NCBI RefSeq assembly: GCF_000146065.2
Contig: NC_020449.1
Span: 930,001-994,000, forward strand
DNA: 64,000 bases
Direction: 5' to 3'
DNA from: Candidatus Cloacimonas acidaminovorans str. Evry
GTDB lineage: Bacteria > Cloacimonadota > Cloacimonadia > Cloacimonadales > Cloacimonadaceae
Both the position numbers and the translations under genes were made by a program. Under the pieces are notes generated by a model that was not told where the DNA came from, made no database searches, and was given only the letters and a program-made list of their open reading frames with translations. Below are positions 43,476 to 64,000 of the stretch, piece after piece (the stretch's first letter is position 1; each line of letters starts with the position of its first letter).

Positions 43476-43612
43476 AACAAAGTGCAGGAATCCGCCTCAA
43501 CCCTTTTCTTCATCTGGCTTAACCTAATTTATACTAACCTTTGAGACACAACTTTCACTTTTTCCTTGACCTAAAGTTAGCACATATTTATCTAGTAATT
43601 GCAGGGGAAGAT

Positions 43613-44557
43613 ATGAAATATTTAGAGATAAAGGCTTTTTATCTTACTGATCAACCTATCGGAATGATAACTGATTTGTCTTCCGCAATTAGAGGTTTGT
43701 GGGGGCGAGGTTTACGCAAAATATACTGTTATCAGAAGCAATTGGAATGTAGTGAATGCCCTTTGGAAAATTGCACTTATTATGTCCTATTCGAGAAACA
43801 GCTTTCCTCTTCCGATCAATACCATCCTTATATTATTCAATCCAGGGTTATTAGTCCCTATCTAATTGAAGCCAAGTTTAAATTTTTCGGTTGGGTCTGT
43901 GATCATCTGGAAAAACTTCTTTATTCCATTATTAATACCAACAATATGCTTCTAAAGAGGGAAGGTAATTCATACAGATTAACCCTGCAGAAAATTGAAG
44001 ATCTGAATTCCAACCAAATTTATAGTGCAGATAGTGAAATGATTACACGTCCTACGCTAAAAATGCTTTATTTCCGACCTGAGGAAGTTCCCTTATTGGA
44101 GATTACCTTCACAACTCCTTTACGCCAAAAACATCAAGGCAAGCTGATGAGTGAATTTATGTGGGAACCCTTTGCCAAGAGTTTAATCAATAGAATTCGC
44201 TTTATCAATGAACACTTTAATAGAAACGAACTGAATATTCCGGAACAGATAAATTTGGACGGAGTGGAAATAAAAGAAGCCAATACCTATTGGAGCGAAA
44301 AAATCAGGGTTTCCTTCCGGCAAGAAAGTAAAATGAGCATTGGTGGTTTGCTTGGTAGTGTTGTTTTAGCCAATGTTTCTCCCGAAATGATAGGTATGTT
44401 GAAATTAGGCAGATACTTACATACCGGTAAACAATGCACTTTTGGCAATGGCGAATTTGCCTTGCGCAACTTATCAGAAAATCAATCTGTTACGGAAAAT
44501 AAATCCACACCAAGCCAAAATAAGGAAATATATTTGTCAGATAAATCTCCACCCTAA
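43613..44557 (+). CDS. cas6: CRISPR RNA endonuclease Cas6
   Basis: About 314 residues from the ATG at 43613, preceded by GGGGAAG; the open frame extends upstream to 43541 but those residues do not look like the family. Cas6 cuts the repeat in the precursor crRNA to leave an 8-nt handle. A RAMP-type fold is suggested by the N-terminal strand and by the C-terminal glycine-rich loop GRYLHTGKQCTFGNGEFAL. A cysteine cluster (CSECPLENC) near residue 50-58 is less usual and could bind metal. It is the first gene of the cas operon. The catalytic histidine cannot be assigned by eye. Confidence 0.85.
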   Translation: MKYLEIKAFYLTDQPIGMITDLSSAIRGLWGRGLRKIYCYQKQLECSECPLENCTYYVLFEKQLSSSDQYHPYIIQSRVISPYLIEAKFKFFGWVCDHLEKLLYSIINTNNMLLKREGNSYRLTLQKIEDLNSNQIYSADSEMITRPTLKMLYFRPEEVPLLEITFTTPLRQKHQGKLMSEFMWEPFAKSLINRIRFINEHFNRNELNIPEQINLDGVEIKEANTYWSEKIRVSFRQESKMSIGGLLGSVVLANVSPEMIGMLKLGRYLHTGKQCTFGNGEFALRNLSENQSVTENKSTPSQNKEIYLSDKSPP

Positions 44558-44618
44558 GCATATATTCAAGTAGGAATACAAGATTCCCAAAATAATATAC
44601 TTCATTAGGAGGTAAAAA

Positions 44619-44717
44619 ATGAAAACTAAAACAATCAAAATCGTCGTTATCGTTGCAACCGCTATTGCAACTATGGGAAAAACATTTCTTCAAACAACCA
44701 AAAAAGCTGAAGAATAA
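44619..44717 (+). CDS. 32-aa predicted membrane peptide between cas6 and cas10
   Basis: An ATG at 44619 follows a perfect ribosome site (TTAGGAGGTAAAAA). The peptide begins MKTKTIKIVVIVATAIATMG and ends KTTKKAEE: a basic start, about 14 hydrophobic residues, then a charged tail. That is the profile of a single-pass membrane microprotein or an uncleaved signal-like peptide. Its stop codon TAA forms part of the cas10 ribosome site (TAAGGAG), so the two are tightly spaced. It is too short for routine gene calling. Translation of this frame could also simply couple cas6 to cas10. No family is recognised. Confidence 0.55.
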   Translation: MKTKTIKIVVIVATAIATMGKTFLQTTKKAEE

Positions 44718-44726
44718 GGAGTGATT

Positions 44727-47234
44727 ATGAGTTTATCTATTCATCATATCGTCCTCGCTGCTCTGATGCATGATGTAGGAAAAGTGATGCAAAGAGCTGG
44801 CTGTTCTGATGTTCCCAAATATAAAGAGAAATGTCGGAAGGATTCTAATAATTACCTTACTTATAAACATGCGATGTGGACTGCGGATTTTCTGGATAGT
44901 CATCCGCTTACTTTACCGGAAGGAAATTGGGAATCAATTGTAGAATTAGCCAGCTCTCATCACTGCAAGGACAGTTGGGAAATGCATAATTATGACCATT
45001 ATTTGGATATGATTATGCAGGCAGATCAAATTTCTTCCAGTTGGGATAGAGAAGAGCCAGAAGAATCATCTACCGACAAGCAACGCTATCTGAAAGTGCC
45101 ACTCTATTCTGTTTTCAGTAAGGTAAGCACCGGGGAAAATAAAACTGCAACTAACTCTACTCAATGGACATATCCCTTACAGAAGTTGACTCCGGATAAT
45201 GCTTTTCCTAAGGAAAGTAATGATTTAATTGACCAAAGAGCTGCTTACAAAGCTCTCTTTGATAGCTTTGAAAAGGATTATTCAACTCTATGTGAATATT
45301 ATAATGATTTGGCAAAGAAAAATATAGCCACTTTTGAAACGGAGCATTTTCCTCAATTTATTGATGCCGTAGATAGCTTGCTGAAAACCTATTTCTGGTG
45401 TGTTCCGGCAAATACTATGGAATCTACACCCATTGGTTCGTTATATCATCATCTGCATAATAGTGCTGCCATTTCCGCTGCTTTATATGCTCAAGATGAA
45501 TGTAAAGAACATAGTGAACCTCCCTTTATAATTATTGCCGCTGACTTGAATGGTATTCAGAATTACCTTTACGACCTCAATCCGGAAAATTCTTCCAAAG
45601 CCAGTAAGCTCTTGCGTTCGCGTTCTTTTCAGATTCAGATGATTATGGAAATGTTGGCGGATAAAGTTATCAATGAACTTGATTTAAGCCACTTAAGCAT
45701 TATTTCCAGCCAGGGTGGAAGGTGGTTTATTCTTGCCAATAACTCTAAAGAAAATGAGCAAAAATTGGAAGAAGTGAAGAGGACTGTAAACGCAGAAATG
45801 TTTACCAGGTTTCTGGGTTTGGTTAGTATTAATCTTAGCTGGGAAACAAAGCTGGGCTTGGCTGACCTGGGGAAAGAACATTTTATTAACACAATGAATC
45901 GGGTATATGAGTTCTTGGAAAAAGAAAAAATGAACAGGTTTTCTGCTTATCTGCAAAAGGATAATCAGTGGCAAACCGAAAACTTCGTTATCAATCACGA
46001 TAATCTTTATTCCGACCAGATATGCGATTTTTGTAAACGGCGAAATTGCGATGATAAATCAAACGAAAAATATAGAGAAATTGAAAGCCCGGAAGAAGAA
46101 AACCCCCGCGTTTGCCATCATTGCTTACAGGAAATTAACTTAGGGAGAAATCTGGCTGAGAATAAAAACAAATTATTTAAGATTTGGCAGGGTGAAGAGG
46201 ATAAAAATACTTATATCCACTTTGCCGGAATGAACTTTTCTCAGGTAAAAGCAGATGAACCGGAGGCGCTTAAAGGAAAAGAGCATTATTTTTGCCTCAG
46301 TGAAGAAAACAAAAACCTCCAAATTCCCAAACGCTATCTTGCTACCCAAGTTCCCATAAAAAATGGCAAGGTTTCTACTTTTGATGAAATTGCTAAACAC
46401 AATGAAGGTTTGCAAGACAATGCTGTAATGAAAGGAGATGTAGATAATCTGGGTTATATTATAAGCCGCGGTTGGCAAAAAGATGATTCTGGAAATCCAA
46501 TTTGCTCCATCACCGAATATTCAACCCTGTCCTTTATGCTGGATTATTTCTTCAGTGCCTATCTACCGGCTCTGATAAAAAAGCAATATCAGGATTCCAT
46601 TTATACCATTTATTCGGGTGGAGATGATTTCTGCTTAATTGGAGCTTATGAAAAAGTAATAGCTTTCGCTTCAGAACTAAATGAAAAGTTCAATGAGTTC
46701 TGCGCTAAAAATCCGGATATTCATTTCTCTGCGGCAATTACTTTGGCTCATTCCAAAGAGCCAATAAAGTTCTCAATTAATTCTACAGAATTAAGATTGA
46801 AAGACGCAAAGCAGGAACCGCATAAGAATTCTTTGCACCTCTATGAAACCATTGTCCAGTGGGATAAATTAACCGATTTATTGGACTTTGCTGATAAATT
46901 AAATAATTGGTTAGATCAAGAAGAGCTAACTCTTCAATTCCTATATCGCTTGCTAACCTACCATCAAATGTATCTGGAAACCCTGAATAAAGAAAATGTA
47001 AACTATCGCAACTTTTTGTATGAGTCCCTTCTCAACTACGATATCAAAAGGAATATAGAAAAAATGAAGGACAATAAACTTACAAATCCTGAAATTGTAA
47101 ATAAACTTAGAAGTTTAACCGGTTTGGAAGAGGGAAACACAATGAAGTATTTAAGAATCCCTCTCTGCCATACAATTTACAAAAACCGCAACAAAACAAG
47201 AACGATAAAAACAAAGGAGAATAAAAATGTATAA
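44727..47234 (+). CDS. cas10: Cas10/Csm1, HD nuclease and cyclic oligoadenylate synthase of type III-A
   Basis: The 835-residue large subunit. Start at the ATG at 44727 with TAAGGAG five bases upstream; a GTG at 44721 would add two residues. An HD-type DNase motif is LMHDVGKV (His15, Asp16). A zinc-finger region follows at about residues 431-470 (CDFCKRRNC and CHHC). The second Palm domain carries the cyclase motif SGGDDF with Gly631-Gly632-Asp633-Asp634. Both activities thus look intact: target RNA binding should trigger single-strand DNA cleavage and conversion of ATP to cyclic oligoadenylates. It overlaps csm2 by 8 bp. Confidence 0.97.
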   Translation: MSLSIHHIVLAALMHDVGKVMQRAGCSDVPKYKEKCRKDSNNYLTYKHAMWTADFLDSHPLTLPEGNWESIVELASSHHCKDSWEMHNYDHYLDMIMQADQISSSWDREEPEESSTDKQRYLKVPLYSVFSKVSTGENKTATNSTQWTYPLQKLTPDNAFPKESNDLIDQRAAYKALFDSFEKDYSTLCEYYNDLAKKNIATFETEHFPQFIDAVDSLLKTYFWCVPANTMESTPIGSLYHHLHNSAAISAALYAQDECKEHSEPPFIIIAADLNGIQNYLYDLNPENSSKASKLLRSRSFQIQMIMEMLADKVINELDLSHLSIISSQGGRWFILANNSKENEQKLEEVKRTVNAEMFTRFLGLVSINLSWETKLGLADLGKEHFINTMNRVYEFLEKEKMNRFSAYLQKDNQWQTENFVINHDNLYSDQICDFCKRRNCDDKSNEKYREIESPEEENPRVCHHCLQEINLGRNLAENKNKLFKIWQGEEDKNTYIHFAGMNFSQVKADEPEALKGKEHYFCLSEENKNLQIPKRYLATQVPIKNGKVSTFDEIAKHNEGLQDNAVMKGDVDNLGYIISRGWQKDDSGNPICSITEYSTLSFMLDYFFSAYLPALIKKQYQDSIYTIYSGGDDFCLIGAYEKVIAFASELNEKFNEFCAKNPDIHFSAAITLAHSKEPIKFSINSTELRLKDAKQEPHKNSLHLYETIVQWDKLTDLLDFADKLNNWLDQEELTLQFLYRLLTYHQMYLETLNKENVNYRNFLYESLLNYDIKRNIEKMKDNKLTNPEIVNKLRSLTGLEEGNTMKYLRIPLCHTIYKNRNKTRTIKTKENKNV

Positions 47235-47658
47235 TTACCAACAAAATCGTAATACCCCACCCGATAGTGTAAAGAAACAATATGGACCCTTTTTTAAAGA
47301 GGACGGTTCTTTAATTCTGGACTGGGTTGGCGAAAAAGCAAATATCACTTCAAAAGATTTTAGTGATAAAAAGATGTCATCTACAGGATTGAGAAACTTT
47401 TATAATGAATTCCTGCGGATTAAGCAACTTCCAACAGAGCATAAGCAAGAGAAATTAATTTTGATAAAACTTCTTGTTGCTAAAGCCAATTATAAAGAAA
47501 TAAATTCAAAAGATAGAAGAAGCAAGATACCACATGAATTCACAATTTTTATTACTAAATTAGTTAAAGAAATAGGCGAAGATATCAAAAAATTTGAAAA
47601 TGCCTGCTTAATTATGGAAGCCATAGTTGGTTTCTTTCCAAATGATAAAGGAGAATAA
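47227..47658 (+). CDS. csm2: Csm2, small subunit of the type III-A complex
   Basis: A 143-residue helical protein with the Csm2 signature: KKQYGPFFKEDGSLILDW, followed by SSTGLRNFYNEFLRIK and KLLVAKANYKE. It forms the inner filament that contacts the target strand. AAGGAG precedes the ATG inside the cas10 end. csm3 starts 2 bp after its stop. Confidence 0.93.
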   Translation: MYNYQQNRNTPPDSVKKQYGPFFKEDGSLILDWVGEKANITSKDFSDKKMSSTGLRNFYNEFLRIKQLPTEHKQEKLILIKLLVAKANYKEINSKDRRSKIPHEFTIFITKLVKEIGEDIKKFENACLIMEAIVGFFPNDKGE

Positions 47659-47660
47659 AA

Positions 47661-48359
47661 ATGTTCACAACTAACATAATTACTGGAAAAATATTGCTTA
47701 GAAGCGGTTTACACATTGGTGGCAATAAGGATACTATGCAAATTGGTGGTATTGATAATCCCGTAATAAAGAATCCCTTAACCAATATGCCCTATATTCC
47801 GGGTTCTTCATTAAAAGGGAAGATGAGATTTTTACTGGAACATTATAATAACTTTGTTCAAGGCGATGGTAAGATACCAGGATTAAAAGTTAACGAGAGA
47901 GAAAATAAAATAGCCATAATTTTTGGGCATCTTGAGCATACTGAAAATAGTACTGATACCAAACCTACCCGGATTATTTTTTCCGATTGTAATATAATTG
48001 GGGCAAGAGATGAAACTGGTAATTTAATTACAGATCTTGAATATCTGAAAGAAAAAATGCTTTCCTGTTTTGTAGAAACAAAAACCGAAGTAACTATTGA
48101 CAGAATTACAGGAACAGCGAAAAAAGGTGGTCTAAGATCTTTAGAAAGAGTGCCTGCAGGTGTGGTTTTTGATTTGCATATTGTGCTGAAAAATTACGAA
48201 GACAGTGATAAAGATAATCTGGAAATAATCAAAAAGGGCTTAAAGCTTTTGGAAAATGATGCTTTGGGCGGTTCAGGTTCCAGAGGAAGTGGTAGAATAG
48301 AATTTCTTGATCTTCAAGTTGATGGAGCTTCTATAGATTTAAAATCAATTCAGCTGTAG
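47661..48359 (+). CDS. csm3: Csm3, backbone subunit and target RNA nuclease
   Basis: A 232-residue RAMP protein that forms the crRNA-binding backbone and cuts target RNA every six nucleotides. The catalytic aspartate is Asp32 in QIGGIDNPVIK; PYIPGSSLKGKMRFLLE and the C-terminal GGSGSRGSGRIEF loop are classic. RNA cleavage should be active, which also shuts off cyclic oligoadenylate synthesis over time. Confidence 0.97.
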   Translation: MFTTNIITGKILLRSGLHIGGNKDTMQIGGIDNPVIKNPLTNMPYIPGSSLKGKMRFLLEHYNNFVQGDGKIPGLKVNERENKIAIIFGHLEHTENSTDTKPTRIIFSDCNIIGARDETGNLITDLEYLKEKMLSCFVETKTEVTIDRITGTAKKGGLRSLERVPAGVVFDLHIVLKNYEDSDKDNLEIIKKGLKLLENDALGGSGSRGSGRIEFLDLQVDGASIDLKSIQL

Positions 48360-48368
48360 GAGGTCGTA

Positions 48369-49373
48369 ATGACTACCTGGAAAATATCCTGGAAACCCTT
48401 ATCTTCTCTTTCCACGCCTTTGCAGAGCGATACAATCTTTGGTCATCTTTGCTGGGCTGTAAATTACTTATGGGAAGATAAGAATAAACTTACGGACTTC
48501 TTAAATGCTCTTAAGGAAGCACCTTGTCTAATATTATCTTCAGCTTTTCCAGCAGGTTCTTTACCCAAACCGGTTATTCCCGTAAAGGATGAATTATTGG
48601 ATGAAATAAGGCAAACTTTGAAAGGAGAGCTGAATGAAATTACGGATTTGGAAATTTCTCAAGTGCTTAAGGATTTGAAAAAAGATAAGTGGATAAGAAG
48701 AAAAGACCTACAAGAAAAGAATTTTGTCTATGATGTAAAAAATGATTTGAAATCTTTATCACTGGTGAAAGGTAAAGAAATACTGAAAAACAGAGGTAAC
48801 CCCAAATTTAATCCTAAATCCGAAGAGGAAATAATAGAGTTTCACAATATGATAGATAGGATAACCGGCACCACTACCGGAAGCGGAGAACTATTTGCCA
48901 GCTCTACCGTATTTTATAATGACATCAGCTTTGAATCCTGGTTGGATACGGATTATTTTGGCGAATCTGAAATCAAGGAAATATTCCAGTTCATTGAACA
49001 GAATGGATTTGGCAAGGATAAGAACACCGGTAAAGGCAAATTTGAAATTCTGGTAGAAGAATTTCATTGGCAGGATTGTCCTCAGAATAATGCTTATCTT
49101 AATCTTTCCAATATGGTTCCCAGTTCAACAGATAGCACTATTGCATCCTATAATTCTAAAACTAAGTTTGGTAAAGTAGGAGGTGATTTTGCTATTCAGA
49201 AGACACCTTTCAAATATCCGATCTATATTATTGAACCAGGAGCTGTATTTTTTGCCCAAGGCAAGGATAAAAAACCGGTAGGTTCGTTACTAAGCAATAT
49301 CCATCCCACCGAGAATATTGTTCAAAACCTGTATTCTTTTAGTATACCAATTAAGATAAGTGAGGAACAATGA
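48369..49373 (+). CDS. csm4: Csm4, crRNA 5'-handle-binding subunit
   Basis: A 334-residue RAMP protein. The start MTTWKISWKPLSSLSTPLQS leads into DTIFGHLCWAVNYLW, a typical Csm4 opening, and a glycine-rich FGKDKNTGKGKFEILVEEF loop follows near residue 220. It joins Cas10 and holds the crRNA 5' handle. Its last four bases overlap csm5 (ATGA). Confidence 0.92.
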   Translation: MTTWKISWKPLSSLSTPLQSDTIFGHLCWAVNYLWEDKNKLTDFLNALKEAPCLILSSAFPAGSLPKPVIPVKDELLDEIRQTLKGELNEITDLEISQVLKDLKKDKWIRRKDLQEKNFVYDVKNDLKSLSLVKGKEILKNRGNPKFNPKSEEEIIEFHNMIDRITGTTTGSGELFASSTVFYNDISFESWLDTDYFGESEIKEIFQFIEQNGFGKDKNTGKGKFEILVEEFHWQDCPQNNAYLNLSNMVPSSTDSTIASYNSKTKFGKVGGDFAIQKTPFKYPIYIIEPGAVFFAQGKDKKPVGSLLSNIHPTENIVQNLYSFSIPIKISEEQ

Positions 49374-50404
49374 TTAGAGAAGGAAATATCAAATATAATG
49401 TGATTCCCTTAAGCTATGTTCATATTGGGAATGGCTCTACTTATGACCCCTTTAGTTTTGTTATCAAGAATGGTTATGCTTATAATATAAATCAAATCGC
49501 TTATATTGAATATCTCAAAAAAACAGCAAGTGCAGAATTTAATAAAGTGCTTGAATCTGAAGATTATAAATCTATACTGAGGTATTTATATGATTGTTTT
49601 GATCCCGATAACCATCTGTATTTAAGTCGCTATCCTGTAAATCCAGATATTGAATCTATTTTTTTAGAGCATATTAAAAATCCTGATAATCAGAATCAAA
49701 TTTGGGCTTTTACCAAAAATGCATTAGGGGTTCCTTATATTCCAGGAAGTTCTGTAAAGGGAGCTATTCGTTCCGCTATTATTGCTGCTTTACAAAGTAA
49801 AATCCAATTAAAAAATTTGAAAAGCGATTTTGAATTTGAATTGTTAGCAGGTGAGAATGAAAAAAAGGCAACTGTTAGTTCTGACCCTTTCAAATATTTA
49901 AAAATTTGTGATGCTCCCTTATCTGATAATTATCTGGATATTGAACGCATTGAAAGAATCTATATTGACAAGAATAAATCTTCTGCTCCTATATACGCAG
50001 AAACAATTAAACCGTCAGAATTGCCAATAACTAAAACGACTTTAACTTTATCGGATAATTTCTTGCAACATAAAGGTATTCAGTATCTTTTTCCTCCTCA
50101 AATGAAGATTATTGATAAAATACTTGCTATATTCCAAACCATAAATAGGTTTTATTATAATAAAATTGAAGAACTTAATAAAAAAATAACTAATCCCGAA
50201 ATAAAAGATGCATATAAACTAATTATTCTGGAATTAAAAAAACTTCTTTCTAATAATCGATCAGGTAATTTTATCCTTCATATCGGAAAGGGAGCTGGAA
50301 CAAATTTATTACAAATCCAAACTCCCAGTAGTGAATTTCCAAAAACCATAAGTTTAGTGGATAAAAAACCTATTGGCTGGCTTAAATTTGAGTTTTATAA
50401 ATAA
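49370..50404 (+). CDS. csm5: Csm5, terminal backbone subunit
   Basis: A 344-residue RAMP protein with IPLSYVHIGNGSTYDPFSFV and VPYIPGSSVKGAIRSAII, the paired Csm5 motifs. It caps the complex at the crRNA 3' end and helps in crRNA trimming. Codon use is more AT-rich than upstream genes but the gene is clearly part of the operon. Confidence 0.93.
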   Translation: MIREGNIKYNVIPLSYVHIGNGSTYDPFSFVIKNGYAYNINQIAYIEYLKKTASAEFNKVLESEDYKSILRYLYDCFDPDNHLYLSRYPVNPDIESIFLEHIKNPDNQNQIWAFTKNALGVPYIPGSSVKGAIRSAIIAALQSKIQLKNLKSDFEFELLAGENEKKATVSSDPFKYLKICDAPLSDNYLDIERIERIYIDKNKSSAPIYAETIKPSELPITKTTLTLSDNFLQHKGIQYLFPPQMKIIDKILAIFQTINRFYYNKIEELNKKITNPEIKDAYKLIILELKKLLSNNRSGNFILHIGKGAGTNLLQIQTPSSEFPKTISLVDKKPIGWLKFEFYK

Positions 50405-53637: not shown

Positions 53638-53645
53638 ATTTTAGC

Positions 53646-55166
53646 TCATAAATTTAACATTTTATCCAGGGAGAACACACACCGATATTTTGGCTCTTCA
53701 GCATTAAACTGATAGTGATAAACATCAACTGGCAAAAAATGTCCTACAGCAATTCCCAAAGCCATACAAAGTGCGGTAGGAGCTGTCTGAAACAAATGAA
53801 TTCTTTCCCAATGATATTCTTGTCTGGCTGTATTTAAAGCAGAATTTATTTCTTGCAAATATGGCAGCCAGTTTTGGCTTGTTTCCATTACCCCTTGGTT
53901 TTCTCTGGCTTGTATAATTAAGAAATTATTTATCTGTAATTGTTTTTGACAATATGCTTTTGCCTCTCCAATCGGATTATGGCTTCCCAGATAAATAATG
54001 AAACCCAGTTCGTTTTTATGTGGCTCATTAATTAATAGTTCGCTTTGGATATATTGGTAGTCCTCTTTTTTAACAGAAACATTTTTCAGTTGCCTGGCAT
54101 TTTCTTTTCCGTAGAGGATAAAAACCTCGTGGTAAGTAGTATTGGAAAATTCCATTTGTAAAATACTTACTGCTCTTTTAAATCCGAAAAGAGCACCAAT
54201 TCCCAATTGCAAAGTGCTTATTTGTCCGGCATAAAACCATAAGACCTTCTTCGGCATCACCTTATCTTCCAGAAGTTTGAATTTATCTTTCACCTGTTCT
54301 TGCAGCAATTTTTGCCAGGCATTGGCTTCAAAAGGAAGAATGCCATTACCGAAAATAGCCAGGTCACTATTTGTGATACCGTAAAAATCTTCCAATAGTT
54401 CATAGCTAAACCAGCTGAATTTTTCCTGCACTTTTTGTTCCATTGCTTTTTGCCAACGCTTTAGTTCATTCTCTTCACCTTGATATTGAATAACAGGCAG
54501 GGGAATGGTTTCAGTATTTAACCAGGCATCAAGCTGTTCAATTTTTTTTATTCTATGCACCAGGTTTTGGCAGCAGCGCTTTTTGTATTCAATTTCTTCT
54601 GCTGTAATAATTTCTCCGGAGGGCAAAACAATACCGCTATAGGCAATTTTAGAGATTATTTTTTCATCTTTTACTAGCAAAGTTGCCAAAACTGCCAGTT
54701 GCCAGGAATTTCCCTGTATATTTTTATTAAAACCGATAAGGCAGTTTTGCTTTCCTAATTGTGCCAAATAGCTGAAGTTTTCAATTTTATCGCCTAAAAT
54801 GGCTAATGCTATCGGTTCCTCGGATTTCAGTTTATATACAAATACTTTTGCTAAAAAAGCATTTTTCCGGCTATCTACCGCCGGGAAAAGACCTATTTTA
54901 GGTTGTTGCTGGCTAAGGGATTTTAGTTCGTTTTCCGAAATTCCCCAAAGCTTACTTAACTGGGTTAAATATTTTCTCTTAGCGGAAAGCCAAAGCAGAG
55001 CATTCAGCTTTATATACGGGTTGTTTGCTTTTTCCAGTAAATTATAAACCCACTCTTCATCATCTTCTGAAACTCTATCTTGCTGAATGTATTGCAAAAT
55101 TATAAGTTCTGCTTCTGCTGAACCGCTTTTTAAATATTTATCGGCTGTTTCGTTAAATTTTGGCAT
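53646..55166 (-). CDS. calpL: CalpL-like Lon protease-SAVED effector
   Basis: A 506-residue protein. After a helical N-terminal ~90 residues, residues about 95-215 match a Lon/S16 peptidase core: nucleophile Ser154 in QGNSWQLAVLATLL, the segment SGIVLPSGEIITAEEIEYKK and a lysine, Lys195, 41 residues on; published CalpL has, as I recall, Ser152 and Lys193 with the same spacing. Residues about 300-506 match a SAVED sensor: VLWFYAGQISTLQLGIGA, LGFIIYLGSHNPIGEAKAYC and the C-terminal HLFQTAPTALCMALGIAVGH followed by VDVYHYQF. CalpL is activated by cyclic tetra-adenylate and cleaves its partner CalpT. No membrane segment is seen. Confidence 0.85.
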   Translation of the reverse strand: MPKFNETADKYLKSGSAEAELIILQYIQQDRVSEDDEEWVYNLLEKANNPYIKLNALLWLSAKRKYLTQLSKLWGISENELKSLSQQQPKIGLFPAVDSRKNAFLAKVFVYKLKSEEPIALAILGDKIENFSYLAQLGKQNCLIGFNKNIQGNSWQLAVLATLLVKDEKIISKIAYSGIVLPSGEIITAEEIEYKKRCCQNLVHRIKKIEQLDAWLNTETIPLPVIQYQGEENELKRWQKAMEQKVQEKFSWFSYELLEDFYGITNSDLAIFGNGILPFEANAWQKLLQEQVKDKFKLLEDKVMPKKVLWFYAGQISTLQLGIGALFGFKRAVSILQMEFSNTTYHEVFILYGKENARQLKNVSVKKEDYQYIQSELLINEPHKNELGFIIYLGSHNPIGEAKAYCQKQLQINNFLIIQARENQGVMETSQNWLPYLQEINSALNTARQEYHWERIHLFQTAPTALCMALGIAVGHFLPVDVYHYQFNAEEPKYRCVFSLDKMLNL

Positions 55167-55440
55167 TTTTTATATTTCCTATTCCTCGGAACTTTTTTTT
55201 ATCCTGCTATTTTACTCTCTCTTCGCCAGGTTAAAACCCGGCTACTTCTAAATGAGTTATGGTTATTTTATTCACCGGATTAAAATCCGTTGTTATTATC
55301 TATCGTTCCTACGGAACTTTTTTTGTTCTGTCTTCATTTCTTATATTCAAAATCCTGTAAATCCTTTTTATCCTGTTCATCCCATACTTATTCTCATTTG
55401 TTAATCTGCGTCATCCGCGAAATCTGCGTGAACCCTTCCT
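55167..55440. other. intra-operon spacer with dispersed repeats
   Basis: 274 bp between calpT and calpL, wide for an operon. It holds a copy of the TCCTGTTCATCCCA and TCTGCGTCATCCGCGAAATC repeats (about 55370-55430) and an inverted pair of CGGAACTTTTTTT words (55187, 55312). It may contain a promoter or processing site of its own. Confidence 0.5.
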
Positions 55441-56340
55441 TCAAAGCACCTTAAGCTTTATATCCAAAAGGTCTTGTGCCTGTTTTGGGAAAAAGGGCAC
55501 AAAATTTGCCAGGACAATTTGTTTAGGCAATTTTCCTTTAAACACTATTATATTTCCACAACGAATTTCCGCTTTTTTATCAATCAGATTTTCATCCGGA
55601 AGTAATAGTAAATTATGGCATTCATCTTTTTGCAATGTATAATTCTCAGCAAAATAAGCATAGTCATTGAGCTTCTTCATATCAGGAGAAATAATACCCA
55701 GAGCAAATTGTGCTATATGTTTATCGGCAGCCGCAAGTTGCAAAGTATCTTCAGGTTTTCTTTTATATTGCAGTTCAATCTGAGGAATCCAAATTAGGGG
55801 ATTGCTTTGTCTGCATCTTAATTCCAAGGTAATATTATGTTCCATAATCCGGAATTTGTTTTCGGGACTTTCCAGGTCTGTATTTATATTTTTATTAATT
55901 GGATGCTCTTTTTTCAGTTCTAATTTCAACTTCTCCAAATTCTTTCTTTCAATAAAATCCATTTCTATTGCCTCTTCAATTTCTTGTTCTGTAATATAAA
56001 AGTAGTTATCTGTTTCCAGAATGTATTTTCCGCTGTCGGTTGCAAACAAAATGTCAAATTCACTGGCAAAAACAGTATAGGGGCTTAATTTATAAGCTAA
56101 ATACCGATCCTTTCCCATTTCGTCTATTATTAAACAGCAAATTAAATAATCGTTATTTTCAAGCATTATAATACTACCGGGTAATTGATCGGGATACTGT
56201 TTGGGCTCTGGAAAACTGAATTCTGCATCTTCAGGCAGAAATAATTCCCTATCTTCCAGTTCTATTGGGGGCGTTTTTGTCTCTTTTTTAATACCCTCCA
56301 AATATGCCTGGTATAAAAGTTCTTTATCTTTTTCGTTCAT
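55441..56340 (-). CDS. calpT: CalpT-like partner (MazF-like domain) of the Lon-SAVED protease
   Basis: A 299-residue protein starting at 56340 behind AAGGAG. Residues about 45-105 (YPDQLPGSIIMLENNDYLIC, then CLIIDEMGKDRYLAYKLSPY) have the strand pattern and opening PGS-I of MazF/PemK-like small barrels. The central part is charged and probably flexible (EKLKLELKKEHPINKNINTD), a plausible cleavage site; the C-terminal ~120 residues form another beta-rich domain. In the known CalpL-CalpT-CalpS complex, CalpT tethers the sigma factor and is cut by the protease. The assignment rests mostly on context, with weak sequence support. It begins 16 bp after calpS. Confidence 0.65.
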   Translation of the reverse strand: MNEKDKELLYQAYLEGIKKETKTPPIELEDRELFLPEDAEFSFPEPKQYPDQLPGSIIMLENNDYLICCLIIDEMGKDRYLAYKLSPYTVFASEFDILFATDSGKYILETDNYFYITEQEIEEAIEMDFIERKNLEKLKLELKKEHPINKNINTDLESPENKFRIMEHNITLELRCRQSNPLIWIPQIELQYKRKPEDTLQLAAADKHIAQFALGIISPDMKKLNDYAYFAENYTLQKDECHNLLLLPDENLIDKKAEIRCGNIIVFKGKLPKQIVLANFVPFFPKQAQDLLDIKLKVL

Positions 56341-56356
56341 TATAAACTCCTTATCT

Positions 56357-57169
56357 TTATTCGCCCTTTTCTTTTTTATATGTAGGGTAAGGTGGACAGC
56401 TCTGACATATTTTTTTCAGGAAGTTATAAATAAAAAGGCGACCTACATTGTCATCAAAATTATTGTTTTCCAATGTCTGTTTAAACTTTTTTCTGATTCT
56501 TTCGTGCAGTTTATAGATATTATCCCTACTTTCATCCCTTAAACGCTTTGTTCCTCCTTTACTTGGTTCTTCCAATTCATGGCATAAAACATTTATTTCT
56601 CTTTTGTCCCATTCTTCATTTATTATAATTACCAGTAGTTTAGCTTTATATCGGTTAACAATATCATATTGAATATAGGGTAAATCTATAAATTGTTTAT
56701 TGTTGTAGTTCCCATAGTATTCTTCTCTTAAAATATGATTAATCTTGTCTTCCATTAGTTCATTAATGAATTCTTCCACACAATGCTTTGTAATATTTTC
56801 CGCAGTTTTGTAAAGATATTTGCCAAAGTCCTCTTCCTTACCCAATTCTTTTTCTTTCTTTTTCAGCTTGTCTACTTGAGGCAACATCTTCTCAATTATT
56901 TTCCCCATTAAACAATAATACATTTCTCCCTCATCCAAACTTGCCTTGAGACATAAATCTTTCAGCAATTTAAACTGAACAGGCCTTTTACCCAAAAACA
57001 TCCGGATTAGTGTAAAAATTTGATATTGTAGCTTTTTGTCGCTGCTTAGCAAATTCGGCTGTTTCAGTACTGTCCATAAGGCATTTTCCAGAGAAATTAT
57101 GTCTTTATCATTTTCTCCATCATTTCGCCATTTTTGGTAACCTTGATTGAAGGTATTTTTCTTTTCCAT
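56357..57169 (-). CDS. calpS: CalpS-like sigma factor (ECF-type)
   Basis: 270 residues from the ATG at 57169, which has GAAGGAAATCAGT upstream; a TTG-started extension to 57226 is less likely because it would overlap the promoter. Residues about 65-145 are helical and could match sigma region 2. Residues 185-232 (EEWDKREINVLCHELEEPSK, then KRLRDESRDNIYKLHERIRK) look like sigma region 4, the -35-binding helix-turn-helix. The first gene of a four-gene minus-strand operon. In the described system the sigma factor is freed when CalpL cuts CalpT. The C-terminal ~35 residues with CQSCPP are extra. Confidence 0.65.
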   Translation of the reverse strand: MEKKNTFNQGYQKWRNDGENDKDIISLENALWTVLKQPNLLSSDKKLQYQIFTLIRMFLGKRPVQFKLLKDLCLKASLDEGEMYYCLMGKIIEKMLPQVDKLKKKEKELGKEEDFGKYLYKTAENITKHCVEEFINELMEDKINHILREEYYGNYNNKQFIDLPYIQYDIVNRYKAKLLVIIINEEWDKREINVLCHELEEPSKGGTKRLRDESRDNIYKLHERIRKKFKQTLENNNFDDNVGRLFIYNFLKKICQSCPPYPTYKKEKGE

Positions 57170-57197
57170 ACTGATTTCCTTCTTTTGCGTTTTTTTC

Positions 57198-57226
57198 CTT
57201 ATGAAATAGCTTTGTTTTTTTGTCAA
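57198..57226 (-). promoter_or_regulatory. candidate promoter of the calpS-calpT-calpL-cad1 operon
   Basis: On the minus strand a perfect TTGACA (57221-57226) is followed, after exactly 17 bp, by CATAAG (57198-57203, four of six). It lies 28 bp ahead of the chosen calpS start and directly beside the 22-nt tandem repeats. Confidence 0.55.
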
Positions 57227-57239
57227 TCAAAACAGTTTG

Positions 57240-57405
57240 CTTTACTTTGAACTTTGAACTCCCGCACTTTGAACTTTGAACTTTGAACTCCCGCACTTTG
57301 AACTTTGAACTCCCGCACTTTGAACTTTGAACTCCCGCACTTTGAACTTTGAACTCCCGCACTTTGAACTTTGAACTCCCGCACTTTGAACTTTGAACTC
57401 CTACA
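57240..57405. repeat. 22-nt tandem repeat upstream of the calp operon
   Basis: About seven tandem copies of a unit built from CTTTGAACTTTGAACTCCCG, one extended by an extra 9-nt ACTTTGAAC step. The reverse complement contains GTTCAAAGTTCAAAG, a word also present at about 4120-4155. It lies just upstream of the operon promoter and between two divergent transcription units. The open frame across it is only a translation of the repeat. Confidence 0.85.
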
Positions 57406-57649: not shown

Positions 57650-59542
57650 ATGATTTTAGATAACATCACTAACTTGGGAAGTAAAGAAATCAAGTTTTCG
57701 GAAAATGAATTTCATTCTTTCCGGGTGCGTTTTAATAATCTTTTTATTAAAGAAGATATTGAAACGGCTCATAACCTCGCTTTAAATATGCTGCCTGTTG
57801 AAAATCTGCAAAGTTCCGAACTGGTAGAATTGGCTCGCTGTTTTCAACTTTTGGGAGATAAAGATAACACTCTTGCTTGTTTGGAAAAAGCTATTCAAAT
57901 TGATTCTCATAACAAGAACGCCAAAATGTTGAAACTGGAATTGCTGGATTCGCTGGAGCAAAAAGAACAATATTTAGATTTTTTACAGCAATGTTTGGAA
58001 AGTGACCCTCAAGAAAAGCAGTATTATTTACTTTTACATAGCTATTATACTGAAAATGGACAAAATGAGCTTGCTGAAAATATATTCTCTCTTGCTTTAA
58101 GTTATGGAATAGATTTGGAGCCACCTAATCCGGATATAGAAATTTCTGTTGCTGATTCCCTTGTTGAACCGGAATGTATAGATGATCCTATTCTAATAAA
58201 CAGCTATCTTACTCTCTTTGCGGGGAGGGAAAATTGCCATTCCAGGCAATGGGTTTCCGATAAAGGTAAGACAGGTTATACTCCTGTTATGGAACCTCTA
58301 AATCCTGTATTGATCCGTAATCATTTACAAGGTATTCAGACCTTGGGTGTGTATCAATTAACATTGAATAATCAAGTGAAATGGATTGTCTTTGATATTG
58401 ATATAATTAATGATTATCTTGATGATCTGCATGATCCTCATTTTCGCGAATGGATAGATAACGGTTTTCTGCAAGTGCTAAGTAATTTTGATAATATTTT
58501 ACAAACCTTTCATCTAAAAGCCGTCTATGAATATAGTGGTTATAAGGGTTATCATATTTGGTTATTTTTACAGGAAGTTACCAGCGCGGCTATTGCCAGA
58601 AGTTTTGCCTTGAAACTTGCCTCCCAAATTGATCTCAGTTCTTTTCCTTTGAAAATTGAGGTCTTTCCGAAACAAACAAGAACTTCTGCCAATAATTTTG
58701 GTAGCTTGATCAAGCTTCCGGGAGGAATACATCGTTTTTCCGGTTTGAAAAGTAATTTTTTTAATCTGAAAGATGGTGTTTTGGAGCCGCTACCTCTTAC
58801 TATGCTTTTAAAACAACCTCCTTTAATTTCTCCCGCTGATTTTATGTCTGCATTATGTTCCTTACAACCGGATTTTTCCTTTGGCAAAACGGATTATGCT
58901 TTAAATGAAGAGCAAACAAACAAGATAGAAGTTCCCTTATTAGGTTCTAATACTCCCCCGGAACTTGATCCCCAATGGCTTTGGCTGAAACAACACTGTT
59001 CTGCTCTTGCTTTTATTTGCCAGGAGATTGAAACACACCATCTTTTAAATAAGGAACAGAAAAAAGTGCTGATCCATTGTGTTGGTCACTTGGAAAGAGG
59101 ACCCGATATCGTAAACTACTATCTCAGGAAATGCAGTAATTGCGAACCTTCAGATCTTTTAAAATCTCCCCTGAAAAGTAATGTAATAAGCTGCAACAAA
59201 ATACGCAATTACTTAAACTGCAACGGTCTTGATTATGATTGCTTTTGTGATTTCACAGCTAAAATGTCCAGTTACGATCATCCTCTTGTGCATTTGGAGG
59301 ATTTTTCACCTGCAAATTATTCTCCTTCCGGAAATAATGAATTAATGCTCAAAGAGACAATTTATAAATATCTGGATATTAAGCGTAGAAATAATGAACT
59401 AAGTGGAACTCTCCAACAACTGGAAAAACAAATCTTAGAGCTTTTTGAACATATTGGAGTGGAAGAATTTATAACTCCTTATGGAATCTTGAAAAAAATC
59501 ACTTCCGAAAATAGCGTAAAATTAATCCTAAAGCTAAATTAG
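57650..59542 (+). CDS. CRISPR-associated primase-polymerase (CAPP) with N-terminal TPR
   Basis: A 630-residue protein starting at 57650 after AAAGGAG. Residues about 1-160 form TPR-like helices (ELARCFQLLGDKDNTLACLE). The AEP/PrimPol core follows: the metal-binding pair Asp249 and Asp251 in WIVFDIDIIND, the motif SGYKGYHIWLF with His302, and a third motif region near KLPGGIHRF. The C-terminal third holds spaced cysteines (HCSALAFICQ, LRKCSNC, ISCNKI, LDYDCFCDF) that may bind a metal or iron-sulfur cluster. CAPP proteins are known next to cas1-cas2 in some type III systems and are thought to make or extend DNA during spacer acquisition. Different from the mobile-element primase at 39868. Confidence 0.82.
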   Translation: MILDNITNLGSKEIKFSENEFHSFRVRFNNLFIKEDIETAHNLALNMLPVENLQSSELVELARCFQLLGDKDNTLACLEKAIQIDSHNKNAKMLKLELLDSLEQKEQYLDFLQQCLESDPQEKQYYLLLHSYYTENGQNELAENIFSLALSYGIDLEPPNPDIEISVADSLVEPECIDDPILINSYLTLFAGRENCHSRQWVSDKGKTGYTPVMEPLNPVLIRNHLQGIQTLGVYQLTLNNQVKWIVFDIDIINDYLDDLHDPHFREWIDNGFLQVLSNFDNILQTFHLKAVYEYSGYKGYHIWLFLQEVTSAAIARSFALKLASQIDLSSFPLKIEVFPKQTRTSANNFGSLIKLPGGIHRFSGLKSNFFNLKDGVLEPLPLTMLLKQPPLISPADFMSALCSLQPDFSFGKTDYALNEEQTNKIEVPLLGSNTPPELDPQWLWLKQHCSALAFICQEIETHHLLNKEQKKVLIHCVGHLERGPDIVNYYLRKCSNCEPSDLLKSPLKSNVISCNKIRNYLNCNGLDYDCFCDFTAKMSSYDHPLVHLEDFSPANYSPSGNNELMLKETIYKYLDIKRRNNELSGTLQQLEKQILELFEHIGVEEFITPYGILKKITSENSVKLILKLN

Positions 59543-59551
59543 AAGGATATT

Positions 59552-60913
59552 ATGAACCAGAAATCGGAAATTGTAAACAATGCTTGGAACCTTATGAAAC
59601 AAGGCAATTATAAAGATGCCCTGCCCATACTGGAAACTTCTCTAAATGAAGACCTATCCCAAAACTATTTTTTGGCATCTCTTTTACTGGATTGCTATAA
59701 TAAGCTTGGTTTATACCAAAAAGCAATAGCTTTGGGAGAAGAACTTTGCTCCAAAGAAAACTGTTGGGCTTCCATCAAACAAAGCTATGCCTGGAGTTTA
59801 TATTTTGCCTATTTTAAAAATTCCGCTACCCTTTCTCCCGAAGAAGCAATTCCTATTCTTGATAAAATGGCACTCATAACCGATTGTAATAAAAAAGTAA
59901 ATCCCCTTTCTTTATCTATCTTTTCCTATCTTTCCCAAAATAAACAAATTACCCCGGAACTAACTATTCAATTGCTGGATATGCTAAAGTTTGATTTACT
60001 GGATGATAAACCTGTTCAATTGAAAAAAAACGGTAAAACGCTTGCTTCCCCCAAAGAACGATTTATTTGTTATTATACCAAGGCACTTTATATGGAAAAA
60101 AATTACTCCCGCTGCATAGCTTGCTGTAAACGTGCTTTAGAATTAAGTTCAAATTCAAAAAGGCAAACTACTTTTAATGACGCTCAAAATAAAGCAACTA
60201 CCAATGCTGATAGTAACCAAGCAGCTTTGTTTATCTCTTCCGATAATCTGATCTGGATAAAAAGGCGTCTGGCTCTATCTCTTTATTACTTAGGTGAATA
60301 TGAACAAGCAGAAGAAATTATGAAGCAAATAATCAAGAAAAAGAAGGATTGGTTTTTATTTCACGAATTAAGCCAAATTGTTTATAAAAAAAATGAACCA
60401 GAAAAAGCTCTTAGTTATGCCGCAATGGCTTCTTCTGCTATTGGAGATGCAGAAATGAAAATCCATCTCTGGGATTTTCTGTATCAGCTATTAGTGGAAA
60501 CCAAAAATTATCCTCAAGCTGTTAAAATTCTTTCTCTTGCTGCCGCTATTCGCTTTCAAAAAGGATGGAATATTTCTCCTTCCCAAAAACAGGAATTAGC
60601 AAAATATAACCTAATTCCCGAAAAACTACCTCCCTTTAAAGATATATTAAATGAACTAAAACCTTGGTTTGCCGAAATCTCTTATGCTGAAAATGAGCGT
60701 TTAACTGGTTATATTGCTAATTTGTTGCCCCATAAAAAAGCCGGTTTTATCAATTCCGGTAATAAAAGCTTCTATTTTAAAGTTTCAGCTTGCTTATTTA
60801 ACCCGGAATATATTGTCCCAGATACAAAAGTATCCTTTATTGCGGAAAGCAGTTATGATCCCAAAAAACAGAAGGATTCCGTTATTGCTGTTAATATCAA
60901 AAGGATTGAATAA
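59552..60913 (+). CDS. TPR protein with a cold-shock/OB-like C-terminus, in the adaptation module
   Basis: A 453-residue protein, not a known Cas family to me. The start follows AGAAGGATATT. Residues about 5-350 are TPR-like helices (YLGEYEQAEEIMKQIIKKKK); residues about 388-453 look like a cold-shock-type OB fold (LTGYIANLLPHKKAGFINSG, then YFKVSACLF, VPDTKVSFIAE and a closing strand), a nucleic-acid binding module. Its TAA shares a base with the cas1 ATG (TAATG), and it follows the CAPP gene by 9 bp, so the four genes should be one operon. A role in handing nucleic acid to Cas1-Cas2 or to CAPP is inference. Confidence 0.75.
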   Translation: MNQKSEIVNNAWNLMKQGNYKDALPILETSLNEDLSQNYFLASLLLDCYNKLGLYQKAIALGEELCSKENCWASIKQSYAWSLYFAYFKNSATLSPEEAIPILDKMALITDCNKKVNPLSLSIFSYLSQNKQITPELTIQLLDMLKFDLLDDKPVQLKKNGKTLASPKERFICYYTKALYMEKNYSRCIACCKRALELSSNSKRQTTFNDAQNKATTNADSNQAALFISSDNLIWIKRRLALSLYYLGEYEQAEEIMKQIIKKKKDWFLFHELSQIVYKKNEPEKALSYAAMASSAIGDAEMKIHLWDFLYQLLVETKNYPQAVKILSLAAAIRFQKGWNISPSQKQELAKYNLIPEKLPPFKDILNELKPWFAEISYAENERLTGYIANLLPHKKAGFINSGNKSFYFKVSACLFNPEYIVPDTKVSFIAESSYDPKKQKDSVIAVNIKRIE

Positions 60914-61947
60914 TGCCGGTTGTTTATATTGCCGATCAGGGCTCTCACATTTGTAAAAAAGGTGATCGTCTTTATGTTTATAGAGGAAATCAGTTACTAC
61001 GCTGGTTTCATACAAAGGATATTATCCAGCTGATTCTGGTTGGTAATATTGGTTTAACTTCACAGGTTGTTACCTATCTCCTTAAAAACCGCATTGATAC
61101 TGTCTTCCTTTCCTATTACGGAAAATTTAAAGGTCGTTTGGTGGGTGAATTTGGTAAAAATGTTATGCTACGGGTTAATCAATTCCAATACCTTAATGAA
61201 CCGGAAAATCGCGTTTATCTTGCTAATCTTATTATCCGGGGGAAGATTGAAAATTCCTTGCTTCATTTAGCAAAAAGAAAAAAGCGAAATAAAGCTGAAT
61301 CCCTTACCTTTGCCTATATAAAAAATAAGGCATTGTTGGCTCAGCTCAAAACTCAAATTCTACCTAAAGATATTTTACTTGGCTATGAAGGAATTGCTGC
61401 TAAAAATTATTTTGCTGCCTTTCCTGATCTTATTGCCAATCCGGATTTCCCCTTTTCCGGAAGAAATAAAAGACCGCCCAAAGATGAAGTAAATGCTATG
61501 CTTAGTTTATCATACACTTTTCTGATGAATCAAGTTATGTGCGCTGCTTATATCTGTGGCTTAGATCCCTATTACGGAGCTTTACATGATTTGGATTATG
61601 GAAGACAATCTCTCGTTCTGGATATTATGGAAGAATTCAGACCTCTGATAGATAATATGGTTATATCACTGATAAACCGTAAAGAAATTCGCCTGGAACA
61701 CTTTCTTTATAATACTTTGCCCGATGATGAAAATTCCGATTTGGATAATTCTACTCTCCCCGTTTCTCTCACCAAGAATGGTATGAAAATTATCATCACC
61801 GCTTTCAGTAAACTGATAAATAGCAAGTTTAACTATAATCAACTATCTGAACAGTGGATTCTAAAAGATATTATTACCCTTCAAATTCGAAAACTGGCTG
61901 CCCATTTTGATAATAAAAAGGAGTATTCACCCTTCCTATGGCTATAA
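60913..61947 (+). CDS. cas1: Cas1 integrase
   Basis: A 344-residue Cas1 that, with Cas2, inserts new spacers at the leader end. The metal-binding residues are Glu159 (YEGIAAKNYF), His225 (GALHDLDYGR) and the acidic pair Asp237/Glu240 (LVLDIMEEFRP). Length is normal and it is not fused to a reverse transcriptase. The start overlaps the preceding TPR-OB gene by one base. A gap of 149 bp separates it from cas2. Confidence 0.97.
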   Translation: MPVVYIADQGSHICKKGDRLYVYRGNQLLRWFHTKDIIQLILVGNIGLTSQVVTYLLKNRIDTVFLSYYGKFKGRLVGEFGKNVMLRVNQFQYLNEPENRVYLANLIIRGKIENSLLHLAKRKKRNKAESLTFAYIKNKALLAQLKTQILPKDILLGYEGIAAKNYFAAFPDLIANPDFPFSGRNKRPPKDEVNAMLSLSYTFLMNQVMCAAYICGLDPYYGALHDLDYGRQSLVLDIMEEFRPLIDNMVISLINRKEIRLEHFLYNTLPDDENSDLDNSTLPVSLTKNGMKIIITAFSKLINSKFNYNQLSEQWILKDIITLQIRKLAAHFDNKKEYSPFLWL

Positions 61948-62096
61948 CTTATACCGCTGGAGGAATTTTAAGTTTGAAGGTAGCAATGCTGAGATATACT
62001 TTAACCATCTCTATAACTTATCTGACAGGGAGGATTCTTAATAACAATAAATGGTTCTCTGCCCTCTGCCCTCAGCTTATAATAAGGAGTTCTATT

Positions 62097-62387
62097 ATGT
62101 CCCTAAACAAACATCTCTATGTCGTCGCTTTTGATATCGTTTCCGATAAAATTCGCTACCGCTGTGTTAAAATTCTCCTTTCCTACGGACAAAGAGTCCA
62201 AAAAAGCGTTTTTGAATGTATCCTAAACGATAAACAATTCCTGGATATGAAATCCAAACTTGATAACACTATAAACCCCGAAATAGATAGCATTCGCTAT
62301 TACCTCCTCTGTGCAAATTGCGAAAAAAACATATCTGTCTCCGGAATCGGATTATATTCTTACTTTGAAGATCTAATCATCGTTTAA
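62097..62387 (+). CDS. cas2: Cas2
   Basis: A 96-residue Cas2 starting at the ATG at 62097 with AAGGAG upstream. It opens SLNKHLYVVAFDIVSDKIRY, with the aspartate of AFDIVSD typical of the family, then RRxKILLSYGxRVQKSVFEC-type residues (CVKILLSYGQRVQKSVFEC). The open frame runs on upstream to 61938 but that part overlaps cas1 and has no family match. It forms the central dimer of the Cas1-Cas2 integrase. Confidence 0.96.
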   Translation: MSLNKHLYVVAFDIVSDKIRYRCVKILLSYGQRVQKSVFECILNDKQFLDMKSKLDNTINPEIDSIRYYLLCANCEKNISVSGIGLYSYFEDLIIV

Positions 62388-62476
62388 AAACTCTTATCTC
62401 AATGAGTTATTTGCTTTCCCTGCGTATGAATAGATTCCTAATATCATATCTTCAAAATCAAAAAGATATTTTATGC

Positions 62477-62505
62477 TTGACTTATTTTATGATTGATTAT
62501 ATAAG
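62477..62505 (+). promoter_or_regulatory. candidate promoter of the precursor crRNA
   Basis: TTGACT at 62477-62482, exactly 17 bp, then TATAAG at 62500-62505: five of six at each element. Transcription would start near 62512 and run through the leader into the array. Confidence 0.6.
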
Positions 62506-62570
62506 GAAAATTGTATGTATAGCTAACTCGCTATATAAACCTTGGCAAGACAAAAAAAGGAGCTGATATT

Positions 62571-62819
62571 ATGATTATTTATGTATGCCCCAAAAATAAT
62601 TATAAAAGAACAGCGATTGCCTGCTCTCTATGCAATTTCGCTAAACTGCTCTATTATAACATAGTTACAAGCTCTATCCACAAAATCATTGTCCCAAACA
62701 CAATTACTTGCTATATATACAATTATACAAAATATGCATCTATACCCCATACCCCCAATCATAAATCTATTAGCCATTGCCATTTTGATAACGATGAATA
62801 CTTTATGCTTAATGCCTAA
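62571..62819 (+). CDS. possible leader-encoded small protein, 82 aa
   Basis: ATG at 62571 is preceded by AAAAAAGGAGCTGATATT, a good ribosome site. The predicted peptide is rich in Tyr, Cys, Ile and His, begins MIIYVCPKNNYKRTAIACSL and matches nothing I know. It lies wholly within the leader and stops 11 bp before the first repeat. Composition looks random-like, so it may be non-coding leader DNA that happens to be open. Confidence 0.25.
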   Translation: MIIYVCPKNNYKRTAIACSLCNFAKLLYYNIVTSSIHKIIVPNTITCYIYNYTKYASIPHTPNHKSISHCHFDNDEYFMLNA

Positions 62820-62830
62820 ATGTATGTGCT

Positions 62831-64000
62831 ATTGAAATAAACTTGACCCGTTTGAGGGGATTGTGACATAAAGGTTCATCTTCATCAGCAGTGTCAGAAT
62901 CAGAATTGAAATAAACTTGACCCGTTTGAGGGGATTGTGACTTAAGCTACATCAGGAGGAAGCATTCCCTGATGTAGGTTATGATTGAAATAAACTTGAC
63001 CCGTTTGAGGGGATTGTGACATTCCGGGCTTTTTCCGAGTCAGGAACAATATTATCTGCATTGAAATAAACTTGACCCGTTTGAGGGGATTGTGACTAAA
63101 GTCCCAGTCTGAAGATAATATTGTGTTTATAGCCATTGAAATAAACTTGACCCGTTTGAGGGGATTGTGACGTAAATACTAATCCTATCAGTTTCATTTT
63201 TCCTCCTATTGAAATAAACTTGACCCGTTTGAGGGGATTGTGACAGGAATAGTCATTTTTCCACGAAGCACTACTGCGATATTGAAATAAACTTGACCCG
63301 TTTGAGGGGATTGTGACAAAAAAGCACTCCAAACAGCTTGGAGAGGTTTTGTTTTGAGAATTGAAATAAACTTGACCCGTTTGAGGGGATTGTGACTTTA
63401 GATTGTGCATTGAATCGAAGGCACCATCCTTATATTGAAATAAACTTGACCCGTTTGAGGGGATTGTGACTATCCCCAATTATCTTTGTTTTCACCAAAG
63501 ATTCTGGAAATTAATTGAAATAAACTTGACCCGTTTGAGGGGATTGTGACGTGAACGCTTTTTTGGTCAAGCAAGGTGTTTTTAAATTGAAATAAACTTG
63601 ACCCGTTTGAGGGGATTGTGACTTTAAAGCTTTAAACACTTTGAATTTGTTAGCTAAATCCATTATTGAAATAAACTTGACCCGTTTGAGGGGATTGTGA
63701 CTTTTTGTTGTAGAAATATTCGAAAGCTTCATAGTCTTCCATTGAAATAAACTTGACCCGTTTGAGGGGATTGTGACGACCACGAATTGCCCCGATATTT
63801 CGTTTTAGCAATACGATCATTGAAATAAACTTGACCCGTTTGAGGGGATTGTGACTCAAAATATGGACAAGAACGATAATCGTGATAACAGATATATTGA
63901 AATAAACTTGACCCGTTTGAGGGGATTGTGACTATATTTCGGAGATTGACTTCTTATCTACCTCGTATTTTAATTGAAATAAACTTGACCCGTTTGAGGG
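62831..64000 (+). CRISPR. type III-A CRISPR array: 15 full 37-nt repeats plus one cut by the window end
   Basis: The repeat is identical in all copies seen; it opens ATTGAAATAAACTTGACCCG and closes GTTTGAGGGGATTGTGAC (the two parts overlap at the CG/GT boundary, 37 nt in all). Repeats start at 62831, 62905, 62984, 63060, 63135, 63208, 63281, 63360, 63434, 63514, 63586, 63665, 63741, 63819, 63896 and 63973 (partial). Fifteen spacers are 35-43 nt, the length spread usual for type III. The final eight bases ATTGTGAC resemble the AUUGCGAC/AUUGAAAC handles of known type III crRNAs, so the plus strand is the transcribed strand and the leader is on the left. The array continues past the window. Confidence 0.98.

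Follow-up and report, generated by a model that had tools for sequence, protein, structure and literature searches.

For CRISPR-associated primase-polymerases (CAPPs) other than the one described here, primase, polymerase and strand-displacement activity as well as binding to Cas1 have been demonstrated, and for relatives also integration by Cas1-Cas2; the characterized enzymes were described as DNA-dependent polymerases, and conserved cysteines in the C-terminal domain were already mentioned (PMC8211822). Among the closest described systems are those of Marinitoga piezophila and Marinitoga sp. 1137, in which a CAPP_A of the TPR type, a type without reverse transcriptase (RT), adjoins an RT-less Cas1 (PMC8211822).

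The locus reported here lies in the window (the whole stretch of 64,000 nucleotides that was analysed) and contains the genes for a CAPP, a protein with a TPR solenoid and a cold-shock-like domain (TPR-CSD), Cas1 and Cas2. With the Marinitoga CAPPs it has in common the TPR, the Prim-Pol and the cysteine-bearing C-terminal domain, and with the Marinitoga operons an RT-less Cas1 together with Cas2 in one operon of type III (PMC8211822). It differs from the Marinitoga operon in having no Argonaute and in having the TPR-CSD gene between CAPP and cas1. The RT-CAPP operons (Caloramator type; Fusibacter, L080) also have a Prim-Pol beside cas1-cas2, and that of Fusibacter shares in addition the TPR-CSD protein; unlike these, the operon in the window contains neither an RT domain nor an RNase HII gene.

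A further likeness is to the TOTE systems, named for TPR, OB, TBP and Effector (PMC12458937). CAPP and TPR-CSD both carry TOTE-family domains: CAPP contains the AEP-TOTE and Mu-Gam-TOTE domains (PF22548, PF22709) and corresponds to a TOTE-type AEP effector, and TPR-CSD (PDLC01170) corresponds to the TPR-OB (cold-shock) component. Unlike in TOTE systems, however, the partners are cas1-cas2, and the TBP-TOTE domain (PF22721) is absent from the whole genome, as it is from all CAPP-bearing genomes tested. Because the TBP component is missing, we do not class the module as a TOTE system despite its two TOTE-type parts.

The CAPP operon and its CRISPR array

The four genes are co-directional on the plus strand, with a gap of 9 nt between CAPP and TPR-CSD, an overlap of 1 nt between TPR-CSD and cas1 and a gap of 149 nt between cas1 and cas2. 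They are flanked on one side by a block of minus-strand cOA-effector genes and on the other by the leader of a type III-A array, which follows directly downstream. The initial annotation had called them one plus-strand operon, which agrees with the common direction, the small gaps and the order conserved in relatives; its gene and domain calls proved correct by matches to NF040561, PDLC01170, PF01867 and PF09827.

43541..50404, plus strand: type III-A effector genes cas6, cas10, csm2, csm3, csm4 and csm5
57650..59542, plus strand: CAPP (NF040561, PF22548, PF22709, PADLOC PDLC01101, fold match to Marinitoga CAPP)
58394..58402, plus strand: codons of the catalytic D249-I-D251 motif of CAPP, invariant in 26 CAPPs
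58997..59248, plus strand: codons 450-533 of CAPP with C450, C515, C531 and C533, a candidate metal site
59351..59536, plus strand: Mu-Gam/Gp157-like TOTE domain of CAPP, residues 568-629 (PF22709, 64.6 bits)
59552..60913, plus strand: TPR-CSD (PADLOC PDLC01170, 4.9e-60; predicted fold)
60698..60904, plus strand: cold-shock domain of TPR-CSD, residues 383-451 (five strands, conserved motif, profile matches)
60913..61947, plus strand: cas1, RT-less (PF01867, 4.9e-79; TIGR00287)
62097..62387, plus strand: cas2, 96 amino acids (PF09827, 5.1e-22; start codon)
62388..62830, plus strand: putative array leader, between cas2 and the first repeat
62831..64000 in the window, continuing to 68746 (extended coordinates), plus strand: CRISPR array

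CAPP is built from N-terminal TPR helices, a Prim-Pol (AEP) domain (residues 183-372), the cysteine-bearing C-terminal domain and the Mu-Gam-like tail (residues 568-629). It matches NF040561, the NCBI equivalog for CRISPR-associated primase-polymerase type A1, with 265.6 bits (curated cut-off 200 bits) and PF22548 with 112.9 bits. Across 26 CAPPs of many phyla every catalytic domain is of the AEP-TOTE kind, 17 of the proteins match the Mu-Gam-like domain, and D249 and D251, intact here, are invariant, in accordance with the catalytic role the initial annotation had given them. The predicted structure superimposes on the solved Prim-Pol domain of Marinitoga CAPP (7nqf) with a TMt of 0.89. TPR_8 scores 20.8 bits on the N-terminus, which is below Pfam's own cut-off, but the paired helices 20-151 of the predicted model match TPR structures, in agreement with an N-terminal TPR domain. 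With a Prim-Pol family domain carrying the DxD motif and with type III cas1 and cas2 as operon neighbours, the polymerase is a CAPP_A of the known TPR type, above the curated cut-off, and an ordinary part of the locus.

The spaced cysteines in the C-terminal part had been noted as possibly forming a metal cluster. CAPP has fifteen cysteines. Three of them (C450, C515, C533) do not vary among the 26 CAPPs and a fourth, C531, is conserved in at least 90%; the other eleven are absent from the conserved lists. The C-terminal region appears PriCT-like with conserved cysteines, and the conservation of these four supports a candidate four-cysteine metal site.

Neither CAPP nor Cas1 has an RT domain (no RVT match in either), and the polymerase is therefore not of the CART-CAPP (RT-CAPP) type. 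That Cas1 is not fused to an RT had been remarked upon as noteworthy; the observation is right and the surprise is not, because CAPP_A of the TPR type ordinarily goes without an RT and in Marinitoga likewise adjoins an RT-less Cas1 (PMC8211822). In Cas1, E159, H225 and D237 are at the places expected for the active site, as judged from the motif rather than from a structure. The likely start of cas2 is the ATG at 62097, which is preceded by an AAGGAG-type ribosome site; a longer cas2 reading frame from 61938 only extends back into cas1. A scan for promoters and terminators gave signals at or below the shuffle expectation. Upstream of CAPP, between genes, a 22-bp unit (ACTTTGAACTTTGAACTCCCGC) forms a tandem array (57222-57404).

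In the array, which begins outside the stretch covered by the initial annotation (57650-62387), 77 spacers separate 78 repeats of 37 nt. The repeat core has 78 matches in the genome (one contig, 2,246,820 bases), of which 77 belong to the array and the remaining one lies some 1 kb past it. The leader is placed on the cas2 side because a degenerate repeat lies at the far end of the array. In the older part (64000-68746, extended coordinates) a repeat variant (GATTGAGAC end) occurs in blocks, and blocks of spacers are duplicated (spacers 25-27 equal 28-30 and 59-60 equal 61-62); both may be taken as signs of recombination inside the array.

The TPR-CSD protein and its association with CAPP

The core of the finding, a CAPP with an RT-less Cas1 in a type III locus, is already known, and that captured fragments might be copied or repaired before integration, as the initial annotation had proposed, is on comparison with the literature the published proposal for CAPPs and not a new one. 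The less known element, and indeed the least known part of the operon, is the TPR-CSD protein. It belongs to the same family as PADLOC-DB PDLC01170 (4.9e-60), labelled 'TPR repeats containing protein fused to cold shock-like domain (OB-fold)', an entry that describes the domains without assigning a function and to which the present analysis adds the pairing with CAPP. The terms 'cold shock' and 'OB-fold' do not occur in the main text of the paper on CAPPs (PMC8211822).

The predicted structure (mean pLDDT 88) consists of a TPR solenoid and a C-terminal five-strand barrel, in which G398-F399-I400 and F409 are conserved. A profile of the barrel from 14 relatives matches solved cold-shock domains (UNR, 1.9e-7; a bacterial cold-shock family protein, about 1e-4); the copy in the window alone does not reach Pfam CSD. 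By profile and predicted fold, therefore, the protein has the five-strand OB barrel with G-F-I and aromatic motifs of a cold-shock domain.

CAPP is over the cut-off in 8 of 125 Cloacimonadota genomes and a strong TPR-CSD is present in 11, all eight CAPP genomes included. In seven of the eight (seven Cloacimonadaceae loci) the TPR-CSD gene separates CAPP from cas1 and has the same direction; in G103, the eighth, the CAPP-cas1-cas2 operon lacks TPR-CSD, and a copy is on another contig. The order CAPP, TPR-CSD, cas1, cas2 is thus kept in six other Cloacimonadota genomes, with CAPP identities down to about 38%, and this conservation is beyond chance, the seven loci not being independent because of their shared ancestry. 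Outside the phylum the family was found in 2 of 15 CAPP genomes (Fusibacter and bacterium CPR1) and was absent from the other 13. In both, the genome's only TPR-CSD copy is directly 3' of cas2; the operon of Fusibacter is an RT-CAPP operon with RNase HII. Among 398 Bacillota genomes seven have TPR-CSD, that of Fusibacter alone in a CAPP locus. A tblastn search found no TPR-CSD in plasmids and no CAPP in phages, and in viral contigs there was a single distant match of TPR-CSD (L120).

Most TPR-CSD copies elsewhere are outside CRISPR loci. Two from the same phylum (L052, L051) directly adjoin TBP-TOTE domains, and others adjoin RnlA-type toxins or RNase HII. At three loci (L088, L091, L092) the TPR-CSD genes are beside RnlA-type (RNase LS) toxins, at L088 and L092 also beside RNase HII; these neighbourhoods are possibly a separate defence module.

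Neither the maximum-likelihood tree of the partner nor that of CAPP can be reconciled with fewer than three changes of association on well-supported branches; the trees leave gain versus loss undirected, and the Fusibacter branch is long on the partner tree. Because at least three changes are required, TPR-CSD was likely recruited repeatedly to CAPP operons, with the reservation that the trees count changes and do not give their direction. The association is recurrent and not obligatory. The link of TPR-CSD to CRISPR adaptation operons in at least three separate bacterial lineages suggests that the protein takes part in the handling of captured DNA ahead of its storage.

Spacer hairpins and the role of TPR-CSD

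Ten of the 71 distinct spacers of the array contain perfect inverted repeats with stems of at least 7, compared with 1.5 expected from dinucleotide shuffles (maximum 5 in 200 sets); random fragments of the window give 1.6. At a stem length of at least 8 the count is 6 spacers versus 0.35 expected. The mean folding z-score is -0.79 versus -0.04 for genomic fragments (p 2e-5), where the p-values are somewhat weakened by the pattern having been spotted by eye before testing. In the arrays of relatives the z-score is -0.28 versus -0.07 (p 0.05, marginal), only one of 83 spacers has a stem of at least 7 (1.3 expected), and an excess of hairpins in the Fusibacter array is not clear. The spacers of the window's array are thus enriched in hairpins, but relatives show such a bias weakly or not at all, and hairpin spacers are therefore not supported as a general signature of CAPP. 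Nor need CAPP cause the bias, because adaptation of type III-A in Streptococcus thermophilus prefers hairpin-forming DNA according to a review (PMC9048733). That TPR-CSD and CAPP form a TOTE-derived prespacer-making unit, which selects single-stranded hairpins, converts them to integrable duplexes and leaves hairpin-rich spacers as its footprint, we regard as quite improbable. No protospacers, by which native hairpins could be distinguished from synthesised ones, were found in viral contigs with seven exact spacer patterns or in phages with 12 joined spacers, and the only spacer matches beyond the own array in 123 genomes of the phylum were three weak and partial ones.

We propose, with a probability of about 0.5, that the locus is a TPR-type CAPP_A module for adaptation in a type III-A system, to which a TPR-CSD subunit from the TOTE repertoire has been added for the presentation of prespacers. 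CAPP would synthesise or finish the second strand on captured DNA, perhaps filling gaps as well; Cas1-Cas2 would integrate the product beside the leader. The cold-shock domain of TPR-CSD would hold single-stranded or folded nucleic acid and its TPR solenoid would dock CAPP and/or Cas1, the docking partner being a guess; TPR-CSD would thereby present the prespacer ends for synthesis and for handover to Cas1-Cas2. This proposal is favoured by the gene order in the seven loci, the co-occurrence of CAPP and TPR-CSD, the copies in Fusibacter and CPR1, the trees, the cold-shock profile with the predicted fold, and the biochemistry and Cas1 binding of CAPPs in relatives (PMC8211822). Against it are the missing partner in 13 of the 15 CAPP genomes outside the phylum and in the G103 operon, the many copies outside CRISPR loci and the shared ancestry of the seven loci.

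Alternatively, TPR-CSD could be an immune sensor or effector partner of the TOTE type, carried along with the locus and uninvolved in spacer making. In favour are its non-CRISPR copies next to TBP-domain helicases, next to RnlA-type toxins and next to RNase HII, and its absence from many CAPP operons. We consider this unlikely, since the gene belongs to the adaptation operon, where it stands between CAPP and cas1 or directly after cas2, and not among the effectors, and since the TBP partner is missing in all CAPP-bearing genomes tested. Cold-shock domains often bind RNA, and TPR-CSD occurs also with the RT-CAPP of Fusibacter, beside RNase HII; the domain could thus capture RNA that CAPP helps to copy into spacers. 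The lack of an RT in the locus and the DNA dependence described for the characterized CAPPs (PMC8211822) make such an origin of the spacers very unlikely. The polymerase and strand-displacement activities of CAPPs would suit an enzyme that acts only after integration by filling the single-stranded gaps at the duplicated repeat, which TPR-CSD would protect; de novo priming, also seen for CAPPs (PMC8211822), is unneeded for gap filling, and we hold an exclusively post-integration function to be rather doubtful.

If the proposed presentation of prespacers by TPR-CSD is true, a repeatedly recruited single-strand-binding scaffold of CAPP operons would be a missing subunit in the making of double-stranded prespacers by RT-less type III systems, and CRISPR adaptation would be tied to the TOTE defence repertoire. 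The parts of the module are small enough for reconstitution in vitro.

Neighbouring genes

In the type III-A effector cluster Cas6 and Cas10/Csm1 were identified by PADLOC matches and csm5 by its RAMP domain, and csm2-csm4 were assigned by position and conservation with relatives. A CARF-RelE gene is found at 50491. The cOA-effector block (51574-57226, minus strand) encodes a CARF-adenosine deaminase, a SAVED-Lon protease (CalpL-like), a CRISPR-T (CalpT-like) protein and, at the position of the CalpS sigma factor, a protein of 289 amino acids that matches only a weak HTH model. The cOA effector set beside the module, together with CARF-RelE, is unusually crowded. The block is kept in one relative (L042) and, without the deaminase, in another (L047).

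In two RT-CAPP loci the RNase HII gene overlaps the start of a neighbour, that of RT-CAPP in Fusibacter (L080:7774-8715) and that of cas1 in a Lachnospiraceae (L079:4521-5474); the RNase HII of such loci perhaps removes ribonucleotide primers or RNA from hybrids.

Elsewhere in the window, two minus-strand reading frames (38493-40899) appear by eye to encode a second Prim-Pol, of the mobile-element type, and a helicase or DUF3987-like protein. At 6560-13149 a transposase-like reading frame (8546-10192, minus strand) apparently splits the gene of a large secreted protein in two, likewise as judged by eye.
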